Origin: Runella slithyformis DSM 19594 | Lineage (GTDB): Bacteria; Bacteroidota; Bacteroidia; Cytophagales; Spirosomataceae | Assembly (NCBI RefSeq): GCF_000218895.1 | Contig: NC_015703.1 | Span: forward strand, 6,275,001-6,339,000 | DNA length: 64,000 nucleotides | Reading direction: 5' to 3' | Shown: positions 56,311-61,982 of the stretch, piece after piece | Position numbering within the stretch: the first letter of the stretch is position 1 | Layout of the letters: each line of letters starts with the position of its first letter | Program-made: the position numbers and the translations under genes | Notes under the pieces: model-generated | The model's input: the letters and a program-made list of their open reading frames with translations, nothing else | Databases searched by the model: none | Told to the model about the DNA's origin: nothing

Positions 56311-59300
56311 ATGATCAAACACTTCTGCTTCATTACTGTTTTGGGGCTTCTGTTCGTCGGAACAGGAATGGCCCAAAAGAAAAAAACCAAAGCCCCTGAA
56401 TCGGCCGCTCAGGCCACAAAAATCACTGATCCCAATTTATTCAATGCACTCCGTTACCGCAATATCGGTCCCTTTGTCGGAGGGCGTTCACTGGCGGTGA
56501 GCGGCGTAGTCGGCCAACCGTTGGTCTACTATTTCGGTGCTACAGGCGGAGGCATTTGGAAAACGATCGATGGGGGAAATAAATGGTTTCCCATATCAGA
56601 CAGTACGTTTCAATCCAGCTCAGTGGGTGCCATTGCCGTGGCCGCCACCGACCCCAACATCATATACGCAGGCATGGGCGAAACCGATATTCGGGGAAAT
56701 ATCTCCTACGGCGACGGTGTCTATAAGTCGACCGATGCCGGCAAAAGTTGGAAACACATCGGCCTCAAGGAAACGTACTCCGTATCGCACATTGCGGTTC
56801 ACCCCAAAAACCCAGACATCCTTTTCGTAGCTGCCTCGGGCAATATCTGGGGTCCTAACAAAGAGCGCGGGGTCTATCGCTCCAAAGATGGCGGCAAGAC
56901 CTGGGAACAGGTGCTCACCAAAAATGACAGCACCGGTGCCGTAGACGTAGTCTTTGACCCTTCCAATCCGCAAATTCTTTACGCGGCCCTTTGGCAGTGC
57001 TTCCGCAACCATCACATGATGAGCAGCGGAGGCCCCGGCAGCGGTCTGTACAAATCCGTCGACGGCGGCACTACCTGGCAATCCATTTCTCAAAAACCCG
57101 GCATGCCCAAAGGGCTGTTGGGAAAAATCGGAATTGCCGTAGCCCCTACCAATGGCAACCGTTTATGGGCCATGATCGAAAATCAGGAAAAAGGCGGACT
57201 TTATCGTTCGGACGATGCCGGTGAAACCTGGAACCACATTACCGATAATCCCAACCTCAAACAACGCCCGTGGTATTATATGAACCTGGCGGTCAGTCCC
57301 AAAGATGAAAACCACTTGGTCATTCTCAACGTAAACGCGTTTAAATCCAAAGACGGCGGCAAAACGTTTCAGCGCATCAATGTTCACCACGGCGATACGC
57401 ACGATGTGTGGATCAACCCCAATAACCCCGATAACTACATCATCGGCGACGATGGCGGCGGTGAAGTGACCTTCAACGACGGTGAAACTTTCACCGACCT
57501 CGACCTGCCGACCTCGCAATTTTACCATGTCTCGACTGACAACGACTTTCCTTATAATGTCTACGGTGCTCAGCAGGACAACTCTGCCAAACGTATTGCC
57601 AGCCGCTCAGACGACGCCACCATCGGCATTCGGGATTGGTATACCGTAGCCGGCGGCGAATCGGGCTATATCGTAGCCGATCCACTCGACCCAACCGTTA
57701 CCTTTGGCGGCAGCTACGACGGACTCATTACGCGATTGGATAAGAAAACCAATCAGGAACAAACCATCAACGTATACCCTGAATACTTTATGGGCTCCCC
57801 TTCCGGAGACCGTACCTATCGTTTTCAGTGGACCTACCCGATCGTATTCAGTCCCCATGACCCCAAAACACTTTTTGCCACCTCCCAGTACGTGCATAAA
57901 ACCACCGATTACGGCCACAGCTGGGAAACCATTAGTCCAGACCTCACCCGCCACGACCCGGCCACCCTCGGACCTACCGGCGGACCCATCAGCAAAGACA
58001 TGACCGGTGCCGAGACGTACGCCACGGTCTTTACCTTTGCCGAATGTGAGCACGAAAAAGGAGTTTACTGGACGGGTTCTGACGATGGCCTCATACACGT
58101 AAGCCGGGATGCGGGCAAAACCTGGAGCAATGTAACCCCACCCAAAGAAATGCTCGGTGATTTTGCCCTGATGAGCCTGATCGAAACCTCCCGCTTTGAT
58201 AAAGGCAAAGCCTATCTGGCCGCCACTCGCTACAAACTCAATGACCGGAAGCCGTACCTGTTAAAAACCACTGATTACGGCAAAACCTGGACGGCTATCA
58301 CTAACGGCATTCCTGCCGATGAATATACCCGCGTAGTACGCGAAGACCCGCACCGCAAAGGACTGCTGTATGCCGGCACCGAGCGCGGAGTATGGGTCTC
58401 ATTTGATGACGGAGTTAATTGGCAAAAAATGCAGCTCAATCTGCCGCTTACGCCCATCCATGATTTAGTGATTCAGAAACGCGAAAAAGACCTGGTCGTG
58501 GCTACCCACGGCCGGTCGTTCTGGATTCTGGACGATTTGACGCCCTTGCACGAAATCATGGACAAAGCCGTTACGGCCGATGCCCACCTCTATAAACCGC
58601 GTCCTTCGTATCGTTTTCAGGGCGGCGGACGCTTCACCACGGATGAGTTTGTGGAAGAAGGCGAAAATGCCCCCAACGGCGTAATGGTGCGGTATTATTT
58701 TAAAGAAACCCCCAAAGAAGAAGTGAAGCTGCAATTCCTGACCGCCACCGGGGATACCATCATTGGCTATTCGAGCAAAAAAGACCGCAAGGGAGAAGAA
58801 GTGAAAGACTCCAAAGACTTCTATGCCAACCCCAAACAGCGGAGACCGGACGTATTGGCGACCAAAGCCGGCATGAATGCTTTCCTTTGGAACATGCGCT
58901 ATCCAAACGCTACCGAAGTAGACGGCATCAACGTAATGTGGTCGGGAAGTACCATCGGTCCTAAGGCCATACCGGGCAAATACAAAGTGCAGTTGATCGT
59001 GGGCAAAAACCTCATTAAAGAACAGGAATTTGACATTCTGAAAGACCCGCGCGTCAAAACCACCGACGCTGAGTTTAAAGAGCAGTTTGCCCTTTTAATG
59101 AAGATCAACAACAAACTCTCCGAAACTCACAAAGGCATCAATCAGATCCGAAAAGTACGCGAAGATGTGAAATCGTATCAAAAAGCCGTAAAAGATACGG
59201 CCATAGCCACCAAGCTCAAAAAGCAGGTCAAACCGCTGATGGACGAATTGGATGCCATCGAAAGTCTGCTGATGCAGCCCAAGTCAAAAGCCGGGCAGGA

Positions 59301-59529
59301 TGCGCTCAATTTTGCCATTCAGCTCAATGATAAATTGGCGGGGGTTGGCTCGGTAGTATCTTCCGCTGATACCAAACCGACCAAGTCTTCGTACGAAGCC
59401 TACAACGATTTGTCGGGTAAGATTGACAAACAACTGGACCGTCTCAAAACAGTCCTTCAAAAAGAAGTTCCGGCCTTCAACGACGCCGTACGACAGGCCG
59501 ACGTAAAAGCGATCAATCTCAATAATTAG
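56311..59529 (+). CDS. Secreted BNR/sortilin-type beta-propeller protein
   Basis: 1072 residues with signal peptide (MIKHFCFITVLGLLFVGTGM). Many BNR-type repeats follow: GGIWKTIDGGNKW, GVYKSTDAGKSW, GVYRSKDGGKTW, GLYKSVDGGTTW, GLYRSDDAGETW, HVSRDAGKTW, GVWVSFDDGVNW. These are the Asp-box turns of VPS10/sortilin and sialidase-like propellers; two propellers fit the length. A C-terminal helical, Lys-rich region starts near residue 900. No glycosidase active site is evident, so the annotation glycosyl hydrolase often used is not supported. Family members are common in Bacteroidota; function unknown. Confidence 0.85.
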   Translation: MIKHFCFITVLGLLFVGTGMAQKKKTKAPESAAQATKITDPNLFNALRYRNIGPFVGGRSLAVSGVVGQPLVYYFGATGGGIWKTIDGGNKWFPISDSTFQSSSVGAIAVAATDPNIIYAGMGETDIRGNISYGDGVYKSTDAGKSWKHIGLKETYSVSHIAVHPKNPDILFVAASGNIWGPNKERGVYRSKDGGKTWEQVLTKNDSTGAVDVVFDPSNPQILYAALWQCFRNHHMMSSGGPGSGLYKSVDGGTTWQSISQKPGMPKGLLGKIGIAVAPTNGNRLWAMIENQEKGGLYRSDDAGETWNHITDNPNLKQRPWYYMNLAVSPKDENHLVILNVNAFKSKDGGKTFQRINVHHGDTHDVWINPNNPDNYIIGDDGGGEVTFNDGETFTDLDLPTSQFYHVSTDNDFPYNVYGAQQDNSAKRIASRSDDATIGIRDWYTVAGGESGYIVADPLDPTVTFGGSYDGLITRLDKKTNQEQTINVYPEYFMGSPSGDRTYRFQWTYPIVFSPHDPKTLFATSQYVHKTTDYGHSWETISPDLTRHDPATLGPTGGPISKDMTGAETYATVFTFAECEHEKGVYWTGSDDGLIHVSRDAGKTWSNVTPPKEMLGDFALMSLIETSRFDKGKAYLAATRYKLNDRKPYLLKTTDYGKTWTAITNGIPADEYTRVVREDPHRKGLLYAGTERGVWVSFDDGVNWQKMQLNLPLTPIHDLVIQKREKDLVVATHGRSFWILDDLTPLHEIMDKAVTADAHLYKPRPSYRFQGGGRFTTDEFVEEGENAPNGVMVRYYFKETPKEEVKLQFLTATGDTIIGYSSKKDRKGEEVKDSKDFYANPKQRRPDVLATKAGMNAFLWNMRYPNATEVDGINVMWSGSTIGPKAIPGKYKVQLIVGKNLIKEQEFDILKDPRVKTTDAEFKEQFALLMKINNKLSETHKGINQIRKVREDVKSYQKAVKDTAIATKLKKQVKPLMDELDAIESLLMQPKSKAGQDALNFAIQLNDKLAGVGSVVSSADTKPTKSSYEAYNDLSGKIDKQLDRLKTVLQKEVPAFNDAVRQADVKAINLNN

Positions 59530-60094: not shown

Positions 60095-60964
60095 TTACCC
60101 CAACGTCACCGTCCACGTGCGTTCAAAATGTTCTTTTGTGGCCAATGAAATAATACCCTCTTTTTGGGTAATGTCTTGGGTATGGTCCACAGAATCCGCG
60201 ATGCCGCACCAGGGTTCGATGCATACAAAATCAGCGTTTTTGGCGGCCCAAATGCCCAGATACGGAAAACCGGGAAAATCAAATCGAAGCGAATGCGGCG
60301 ATTTTGGTGTGTGCAACACCACGCTGTCGGAGCGATAATTTTTGAAGACGAGCGCATCTTCGTAAAATAACTCCTTGGAAAGCGGCAAGTCCGTTGCCTG
60401 TTTAACTAGAACCACGGGCATTTTTTCAACCATTCCTTCGGGCGTCAATGGCCACCGAGCCCAATCTTCCGACTGATTAAAACTCAATACATAATCGTTG
60501 TACTGCGTTCCTTCCAACAACGGTACCTTAAACGCCGGATGCGCTCCTACCGAAAACCACAATGTATCGCTGCCCGGGTTTTCCACCATATAACTAACCT
60601 GTAACTGATTGTTCAGCAACGCATACCGAACGCGAAAGGCAAATTCAAAAGGATATACCGACAGTGTACTTTCATCATGCGTCAGCAAAAACGTGACCGA
60701 ATCGCTTTGTTGCTGCTCTACTGCAAAGGTTTTTTCACGGGCAAATCCGTGCCGGGGAAGGTGATACGCTTTATCGTTGCAGTAATATGTATTGTCTTTC
60801 AAACCGCCCACGATCGGAAACAGCACGGGCGAATGTTTGCTCCAAAAAGCAGGATCTCCCTGCCACATAAATTCAAGTTCAGAGGCAAGTAATATCAAAC
60901 TTACGAGCTCGGCTCCTTTGGGATGGATGGTAGCTTGTATATCGGCGTTTTGGAGGGTTATCAT
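60095..60964 (-). CDS. Aldose 1-epimerase family protein
   Basis: 289 residues from ATG 60964 (MITLQNADIQATIHPKGAEL); the frame to 61078 adds 38 residues overlapping the Kunitz gene on the same strand and lacking homology. Galactose mutarotase-like fold: GAELVSLILLASELEFMWQG, FPIVGGL, LPRHGFARE, WFSVGAHPAF (the conserved His region) and IEPWCG. Members interconvert anomers or act as glucose-6-phosphate epimerases. It is the last gene of the minus-strand run from the phytanoyl-like gene. Confidence 0.88.
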   Translation of the reverse strand: MITLQNADIQATIHPKGAELVSLILLASELEFMWQGDPAFWSKHSPVLFPIVGGLKDNTYYCNDKAYHLPRHGFAREKTFAVEQQQSDSVTFLLTHDESTLSVYPFEFAFRVRYALLNNQLQVSYMVENPGSDTLWFSVGAHPAFKVPLLEGTQYNDYVLSFNQSEDWARWPLTPEGMVEKMPVVLVKQATDLPLSKELFYEDALVFKNYRSDSVVLHTPKSPHSLRFDFPGFPYLGIWAAKNADFVCIEPWCGIADSVDHTQDITQKEGIISLATKEHFERTWTVTLG

Positions 60965-60997
60965 GGAAAGATGGTTATTTTGAAATAAACGAATGGA

Positions 60998-61034: not shown

Positions 61035-61289
61035 TTACCTTCTGCACTCACAATCTCGGCAGGCTTCCAAGGTCTCAAACGGTACTACGCCTCCACATCC
61101 GCCCCACGTAAATTCCTTACATTTCTTTTCTCTTTTATCGTAATAATATCTTTTAAAGGCCGCAAAACATACTCCACTCTCGGGTTCTAAAGAGCAATTA
61201 GGCGGTACCGGGCAGGAGCCTTCGCAACTCAACAGGCATACAATAGTGGCAGTCCATGACAAAGCAGTATAGAATGAGCGCATTTTCAT
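61035..61289 (-). CDS. Lipoprotein with a Kunitz/BPTI domain
   Basis: 84 residues. The N-terminal segment ends at a lipobox (LLSC, Cys22). The Kunitz domain runs from about C32. Cysteines follow BPTI: C32-x8-C41-x15-C57-x7-C65 exactly, then C77 (one residue fewer than BPTI) and C80/C82. Conserved Kunitz residues: KRYYY (48-50 equals BPTI Tyr21-Phe22-Tyr23 type), EFTWGGC with Phe60 (BPTI Phe33) and Gly63-Gly64. The residue after C41 is Phe42 at P1, followed by Ala43 at P1'. Kunitz domains are mainly animal serine-protease inhibitors. Located 70 nt upstream of the aldose epimerase gene; there are no protease genes nearby. Substrate protease unknown; Phe at P1 suggests chymotrypsin-like targets. 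Extra Cys26 is unpaired in BPTI. Confidence 0.88.
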   Translation of the reverse strand: MKMRSFYTALSWTATIVCLLSCEGSCPVPPNCSLEPESGVCFAAFKRYYYDKREKKCKEFTWGGCGGVVPFETLEACRDCECRR

Positions 61290-61397: not shown

Positions 61398-61982
61398 TCA
61401 TAGTGGATGCGCCTGCCATATAGACTCCGTCAAACGAAAATCGGTAAAAACCGCCTCGAAACTTGACTCCAGCGGACTACAGGCATACACGCCAAAATAC
61501 ACTTCGAGCAATGGCCGGTGCAAATGAAAAATACGCATTTGACTGAAATCTTCTCCATCCTCCGAATTTTCGATCAGAAAATCCGAACCGCGCCGCGACA
61601 GTCGATACCACATGGTGCGCACCTCAGCCGAAATGTCGGTCGTAGCCCAATCTGAATACCCTAAGTTGGTGACGACGCTGCCCAACCGGGCTATGTGTTC
61701 ATTTTCATATTCAATAGATGCCTTAAACCAATTATCGCTGTCTTGGTAAATGATGACGCCGCATTGGTCAAATTGGGTGTGTGAATCGAAGGTGGTTTTG
61801 ACCGTAAACGTAAAATCCTCAGCAATGCTCCGCAAAAACGCCGGTGCATTGTCATTTTGAAATCCGTAATAGGTTCGTTGCCAAAAATCGGTTTTCGGCT
61901 CGGTTCTGATGCTGACGCGGTCGTCTTCGATCTGAAAATGTTGCGGCGGGTACAGCCAACGAAATATAGAAAAATCGATCAT
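61398..61982 (-). CDS. DUF1349 family concanavalin-like protein
   Basis: 194 residues, no signal peptide, one beta-sandwich. Features: RTEPKTDFWQRTYYGFQND, FTFTVKTTFDSHTQFDQCGV, IIYQDSDNWFKASIEYEN, YRLSRRGSDFLIENSEDG and LEVYFGVYACSPLESSFEAV. This is the DUF1349 (regulation of enolase-1-like) family; possible carbohydrate-related role, not known. It follows the Ldh-family gene on the minus strand with 13 nt between, so they are probably cotranscribed. Confidence 0.85.
   Translation of the reverse strand: MIDFSIFRWLYPPQHFQIEDDRVSIRTEPKTDFWQRTYYGFQNDNAPAFLRSIAEDFTFTVKTTFDSHTQFDQCGVIIYQDSDNWFKASIEYENEHIARLGSVVTNLGYSDWATTDISAEVRTMWYRLSRRGSDFLIENSEDGEDFSQMRIFHLHRPLLEVYFGVYACSPLESSFEAVFTDFRLTESIWQAHPL

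Follow-up and report, generated by a model that had tools for sequence, protein, structure and literature searches.

The proteins closest to the one described here belong to the BPTI/Kunitz family (PF00014; MEROPS I2), of which BPTI, TFPI Kunitz-2, APPI, textilinin-1 and boophilin are examples. That inhibition of foreign serine proteases at the envelope is workable in bacteria is known from ecotin, a periplasmic inhibitor of S1-family enzymes which can spare DegP/HtrA (PMC7773321). Here we examined a gene of 84 codons plus stop at positions 61035..61289 (minus strand, as are all features given below) of a 64,000-nucleotide stretch of the Runella slithyformis DSM 19594 genome (NC_015703.1, positions 6,275,001 to 6,339,000; hereafter the window). 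A sequence-only reading had placed a Kunitz lipoprotein at these coordinates, which are right, without naming the strand; the open reading frame (ORF) runs from 61289 to 61035, and the plus-strand reading of the same interval contains stops. We consider it likely that the product, tethered by a lipid anchor, inhibits S1-family serine proteases in the manner of Kunitz (BPTI-type) proteins and most probably guards the cell against the proteases of other organisms; it may be the protease-inhibitor shield that had been proposed. The domain, then thought a rarity outside animals, is a real bacterial Kunitz domain but no oddity of one genome, since it belongs to a sizeable, patchily distributed prokaryotic subfamily.

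Kunitz fold and cysteine spacing

A Pfam scan gave the window protein a PF00014 match of 44.1 bits (E 2.4e-11) against a curated cut-off of 21, and down to E 1 it returned PF00014 alone; an NCBIfam search of the protein returned no family. At E <= 1e-3 the protein matched 95 distinct PDB sequences and 169 homologous proteins, and chance is no plausible source of such a likeness. Alignment A1 comprises 120 of these homologues together with the window protein (121 rows); the homologues that carry names are bacterial and most are metagenome proteins. The predicted fold is BPTI-like, as had been expected, and the model aligns end to end with 6pti (model residues 27-80, ORF residues 28-81, all aligned to BPTI 1-56; 54 aligned). 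Every residue singled out from the sequence alone is present in the ORF (C22, C26, C32, C41, F42, A43, RYYY at 47-50, C57, F60, GGC at 63-65, C77, C80 and C82). The ends of the structural alignment, gap-free on the model side, place C32 at BPTI Cys5 and C80 rather than C82 at Cys55, which would settle in favour of C80 a choice previously left between the two. In the model, C32, C41, C57, C65, C77 and C80 would then supply all six cysteines of BPTI positions 5, 14, 30, 38, 51 and 55, and the Kunitz domain spans residues 32-80 (61050..61196).

The first four cysteines keep the BPTI spacings exactly (x8, x15, x7) and C77 does lie one residue early, as had been noticed. The Cys38-Cys51 interval is x11 where BPTI has x12 and Cys51-Cys55 is x2 where BPTI has x3, so that the protein departs from the classical animal spacing C-x8-C-x15-C-x7-C-x12-C-x3-C in its C-terminal half. 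Across A1, Cys38-Cys51 is x11 in 115/121 rows (x10 in three, no pattern in three) and Cys51-Cys55 is x2 in 89/121 (x3 in 31, absent in one). All seven Kunitz-domain alignments to animal chains, drawn from three of the 95 PDB sequences, require a one-residue gap after Cys38. Ten positions are invariant in A1 (C32, P36, G39, C57, F60, G64, C65, P70, F71 and C77), and C41 and C80 are retained in 119/121 and 120/121 rows respectively. A second, weaker branch (L089 and L090, 31 and 30.7 bits) has a loop that is shorter still and retains CxxCxC and a cysteine before the domain. Compared with the BPTI/Kunitz family, prokaryotic members are shorter by one residue between Cys38 and Cys51 and, in the 89 rows, by another between Cys51 and Cys55; GVVPF replaces the animal loop, an extra cysteine pair is frequent and an N-terminal lipobox is present. 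The distinct spacing appears to be new. A Kunitz domain in Bacteroidota is not, because public annotation already names some subfamily members BPTI/Kunitz domain-containing protein. Our literature search found no paper on a prokaryotic Kunitz family by title or abstract start, which is a thin basis, and a mention in Kantyka et al. 2010 (prokaryotic peptidase inhibitors) is possible.

The sequence ahead of the domain, judged by eye, comprises a signal peptide (residues 1-21, 61227..61289), over residues 3-19 of which the structural model has a helix, with the lipobox LLS just before Cys22 (61224..61226), the predicted lipidated residue. A nine-residue linker containing C26 joins Cys22 to the Kunitz domain (C32-C80). 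Cysteine occupies the lipobox column in 119/120 non-gap A1 rows, and by its signal peptide and LLS-C22 lipobox the window protein is classed as a lipoprotein.

The extra cysteines Cys26 (61212..61214) and Cys82 (61044..61046) belong to a pair that tends to occur together. When cysteines between lipobox and domain (mid) and after the sixth cysteine (tail) were counted in 120 A1 rows, both were present in 70, neither in 33, tail only in 12 and mid only in five, giving an odds ratio of 38.5 (p 2e-14, uncorrected for relatedness); among the 12 tail-only rows, P0062, P0070 and P0100 have another cysteine in the position-55 role. A second sample (n=71) gave the same direction more weakly, with 23 both, 27 neither, 17 tail only and 4 mid only (Fisher p 1.7e-4), and removal of A1 members left 65/71 with 21, 24, 16 and 4 respectively (odds ratio 7.9, p 7e-4). 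This sample left out 20 entries (19 without a recognised lipobox, one multi-domain), as well as domains that repeated an earlier one exactly or were off the cysteine pattern. An earlier rule, which in several rows mistook a cysteine of the signal peptide for the lipidated residue, had given 31 both, 18 neither, 11 mid only and 11 tail only; the revised rule may err oppositely, possibly taking the second cysteine as lipidated in L036, L074 and the 'CC' loci L024, L030 and L120. A tree-based check yielded just two independent pairs on supported branches, the core being too short for a resolved tree. As judged from these sequences the coupling is present but loose, and appears to be new; an optional fourth disulfide, C26-C82, would be its natural, though unproven, reading.

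The predicted inhibitory loop and variability at P1

Alignment to BPTI-type chains puts P1 at Phe42 and P1' at Ala43 (61161..61166), in agreement with the original assignment. In 118 A1 rows P1 is F (36), L (18), K (16), Y (11), N (10), E (7), D (6), Q (5), M (4), R (4) or T (1), while the flanking Cys41 and Ala43 scarcely vary (P1' is Ala in 120/121 rows) and the loop architecture of G39, C41, A43 and C65 is nearly invariant. In 58 dereplicated sequences scored over 46 columns, P1 ranks first in chemical-class entropy (33 hydrophobic, 11 amide, 7 basic and 7 acidic) and P3 second in residue entropy. At 12 syntenic flavobacterial loci the core is on average 70% identical, yet P1, which is L, F, E, D or N, matches in 13/66 pairs; six Hymenobacter loci with shared neighbours have Y, M, L or N, and a metagenome protein 77% identical to that of the window (P0003) has Leu. 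Turnover of P1 is meant here as a measure of variability (entropy, pair agreement) and not as a codon-model analysis of selection, and its occurrence at syntenic loci appears to be new.

The gene itself is under purifying selection. Reading frame and cysteines, whose loss among orthologues had been named as a sign against the domain, are intact in all six genus copies, including that of the window. Over the mature part, nonsynonymous divergence (dN) between G000 and G004 is 0.027 and synonymous divergence (dS) 0.177; dN is lower than dS among Runella-group copies, and dS is saturated for pairs across the two Runella groups.

A protein of this kind could also be a non-inhibitory Kunitz fold, serving as a lipoprotein with a binding or structural role or as a ligand directed at a channel or receptor. 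The nearest folds include dendrotoxin and mambaquaretin, inhibition has been lost in some Kunitz proteins of animals, and some prokaryotic copies lie within large proteins carrying kelch, dockerin or type IX secretion system (T9SS) tail domains. However, a near-invariant G39, C41, A43 and C65 beside P1 and P3, which are among the most variable columns, speaks against this explanation, as do the fusions with Kazal and serpin domains described below, and we regard it as quite unlikely.

Distribution, neighbourhood and domain architectures

PF00014 was found in 6/13 genus genomes (6/12 at 90% completeness), 13/200 of the family, 24/390 of the order and 6/395 of the phylum, in samples that overlap, with one match per positive genome and none in 14 control genomes. 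The window gene is the only match in its 6.9-Mb genome, and the three nearest named loci are those of Runella species at 75-90% identity. Downstream of it lies an aldose 1-epimerase gene (60095..60967; PF01263; the ATG start was chosen, and a longer ORF from a TTG start exists) and upstream the gene of a DUF1349 protein (61398..61982; PF07081), the two flanks of the insertion site. The Kunitz gene stands between these genes in G000, G004 and G006, whereas in G009 and G012 they are about 100 and 75 bp apart with no Kunitz gene between them. In G001 and G011 the epimerase gene is present but DUF1349 is missing, and G002, G003 and G005 have the Kunitz gene at other sites. Among the loci compared, DUF1349 and epimerase genes adjoin the Kunitz gene only in G000, G004, G006 and the named locus L002; the named R. 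limosa and R. defluvii loci have one neighbour in common (a sugar-isomerase-like protein, by reading) and differ in the other. In all this the Kunitz gene behaves as an accessory single gene. We noted that about 570 bp resembling remnants of other genes separate the Kunitz and epimerase genes in G004 and G006 (L101 and L099), which suggests a site of gene turnover. We also noted that the gene of a 1072-aa protein lies 1.5 kb away (56311-59529 of the window), relatives of which stand beside Kunitz genes in L075:3516-6596 and L087:1770-3143, maybe by chance.

Contamination by animal DNA was also considered: animals are the main known source of PF00014, and a published five-Kunitz protein ascribed to Acinetobacter baumannii has the classical animal pattern (PMC11511053). 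The window gene, however, lies between bacterial genes in a 6-contig genome, copies occur in 6/13 genus genomes and at the 12 syntenic flavobacterial loci, and the family has its own spacing and lipobox. Synteny, orthologues and this signature refute contamination for the window gene, and its probability is in our view negligible. In bacterial assemblies, the x11 spacing together with GVVPF may also help to distinguish Kunitz genes of prokaryotes from contaminating animal ones.

In the flavobacterial cluster the Kunitz gene is preceded by an LVIVD-repeat protein gene and followed by topA at 12/12 loci (in L075 topA is 3.5 kb further); a PF03781 gene, taken for gldK, is present at 11/12 and the GldL gene (PF22827) at 10/12. 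We rejected a functional assignment from neighbours: the flavobacterial and Hymenobacter neighbourhoods are constant but their genes seemingly unrelated, and the window neighbours recur at few loci. Cargo of a mobile element was likewise rejected, as the plasmid, phage and viral records searched revealed no carrier: with TBLASTN at E <= 1e-3 neither the 72,556 plasmid records nor the 50,697 phage records gave a match, and three pattern stretches on viral contigs included no confirmed relative. At the flavobacterial locus, L031, L040 and L053 carry long N-terminal extensions of two kinds on the Kunitz domain; the L031-type extension (scanned as the L088 protein) and L040 gave no further Pfam match.

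These surveys bear on the possibility that the protein restrains the cell's own periplasmic or secreted serine proteases. All 13 genus genomes have one to four trypsin-fold (PF00089) matches, and the GldL gene of the gliding/T9SS machinery lies a few genes from the flavobacterial Kunitz gene. Set against this, the inhibitor is present in only six of those 13 genomes, and PF00089 counts are 3, 3, 3, 3, 3 and 4 with it and 3, 1, 1, 3, 2, 4 and 4 without it, though the genomes are few. P1 chemistry shifts between syntenic orthologues, unlike what a partner of a conserved enzyme would show, and the analogous inhibitor ecotin is described as inactive on DegP/HtrA. Self-protection is therefore, to our mind, unlikely.

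A scan of reference genomes gave 133 encoding stretches, from which 80 loci were retained for reading. P0129 is a Kazal and Kunitz protein (Kazal_1 29.1 bits, cut-off 21), and the Kazal match in P0110 is below threshold (17.5 bits). A protein of a Saprospiraceae metagenome-assembled genome (MAG; L042:5419-6552) has six tandem Kunitz domains with P1 residues K, E, K, E, K and R, P0121 has four domains, and the L079 Kunitz protein has a T9SS sorting tail (PF18962). Where separate Kunitz genes are adjacent they differ at P1 in 3/3 loci: L016 (E, R, L), L052 (M, D) and L061 (E, K). Among archaea, a Woesearchaeota MAG (L060) has one Kunitz domain with P1 Glu, and in the Nitrosopumilaceae family (that of the L069 MAG) 4/151 genomes sampled have one (L069:5788-7308, L132-L135), with P1 R, K, K and K. 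In one of these proteins the Kunitz domain is fused to a full serpin (404.7 bits) and another carries DUF6438 and DUF4377. All four contain, by eye, the stretch P(A/N)CV...L(I/M/V)(E/Q)R(G/N)W, of which a pattern script found two, and since the same stretch recurs in an ordinary neighbour encoded on the L069 contig, this argues that they are probably native archaeal genes. The archaeal and serpin-fused forms appear to be new. DUF4377 also lies next to the Kunitz domain in P0132, P0136 and L133, the last with DUF6438 in addition, and P0132 has by eye a Kazal-like cysteine stretch that Pfam did not report.

Proposed function and comparison with known systems

We propose that the protein would be exported and lipidated on Cys22, the nine-residue linker tethering it to the envelope, and that the disulfide-tied Kunitz head would hold out a rigid loop, formed around C41-F42-A43, that resembles a substrate. 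If the protein acts as BPTI-family inhibitors do, Phe42 would occupy the S1 pocket of a chymotrypsin-like enzyme of the S1 family, whose grip on a scissile bond that is barely cleaved would leave the enzyme blocked. The likeliest targets would be proteases of predators, competitors or hosts and not one fixed protease of the cell's own; we favour foreign targets because P1 varies within a fixed frame, presence is patchy and the domain is fused to other inhibitors.

Several observations weigh against this proposal. P1 is just fourth of the 46 columns in plain residue entropy, and it is Phe in all six genus copies, the window's included. In 18/58 dereplicated sequences, about a third, P1 is N, Q, D or E, which are poor P1 residues for trypsin or chymotrypsin, so that some members may target other enzymes or not inhibit. 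Relative to animal inhibitors, the loop that follows Cys38 lacks one residue, and it lies close to the secondary contact region. A Kunitz fold need not inhibit, and the structural matches include dendrotoxins. For every family member, inhibitory activity is something that we infer from sequence. Lastly, the surface or periplasmic attachment suggested earlier holds as far as the lipobox goes, but the word surface goes beyond the evidence: the window protein reads C-E-G-S-C where a C-X-K-(D/E)2 surface-export signal would stand, and C-x-K-(D/E) follows the lipidated cysteine in 10/71 relatives. Surface-exported lipoproteins of Bacteroidota (lipoprotein export signal, LES) are reported to have C-X-K-(D/E)2-X after the lipidated cysteine and other genera to use other signals, so that exposure may still occur here (PMC5080379).

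A broader idea, which we put forward tentatively and think somewhat more likely wrong than right, is that a Kunitz lineage of their own serves prokaryotes, ammonia-oxidising archaea among them, as modular anti-protease armour, which takes the form of lone lipoproteins, of tandem arrays with as many as six domains and of Kazal or serpin fusions. An arms race against proteases from predators and competitors would underlie the turnover of P1 from one orthologue to the next, and the optional C26-C82 disulfide would stiffen the head. Should the inhibition prove real, prokaryotes too would be defending their cell envelope with a fold otherwise regarded as a speciality of animals, and natural variants would exist at P1, the residue that sets the choice of target. 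Which proteases attack free-living bacteria and archaea would become testable, and inhibitor work would gain a compact, different disulfide frame.

The Kunitz protein F6W77 of A. baumannii shares with this family its description as a bacterial Kunitz protein, but is reported to be secreted with five classical six-cysteine domains, whereas members here are mostly single-domain lipoproteins with their own spacing (PMC11511053). For that protein, tick boophilin served as the modelling template, and the text of the paper nowhere speaks of contamination (PMC11511053). The likeness to snake-venom Kunitz/BPTI inhibitors lies in the canonical loop, including P1, which is among their fast-changing parts and is there reported as positively selected; in that study their scaffold also changes and codon models were applied, whereas the prokaryotic family was assessed by entropy only (PMC5107962). 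The venom inhibitors form a multigene family, while the prokaryotic Kunitz protein is usually a single-copy lipoprotein. Ecotin has no sequence relation to the window protein, the Pfam scan to E 1 giving no ecotin match, yet the job we propose, envelope inhibition of foreign serine proteases, is the one for which ecotin provides the bacterial precedent (PMC7773321).
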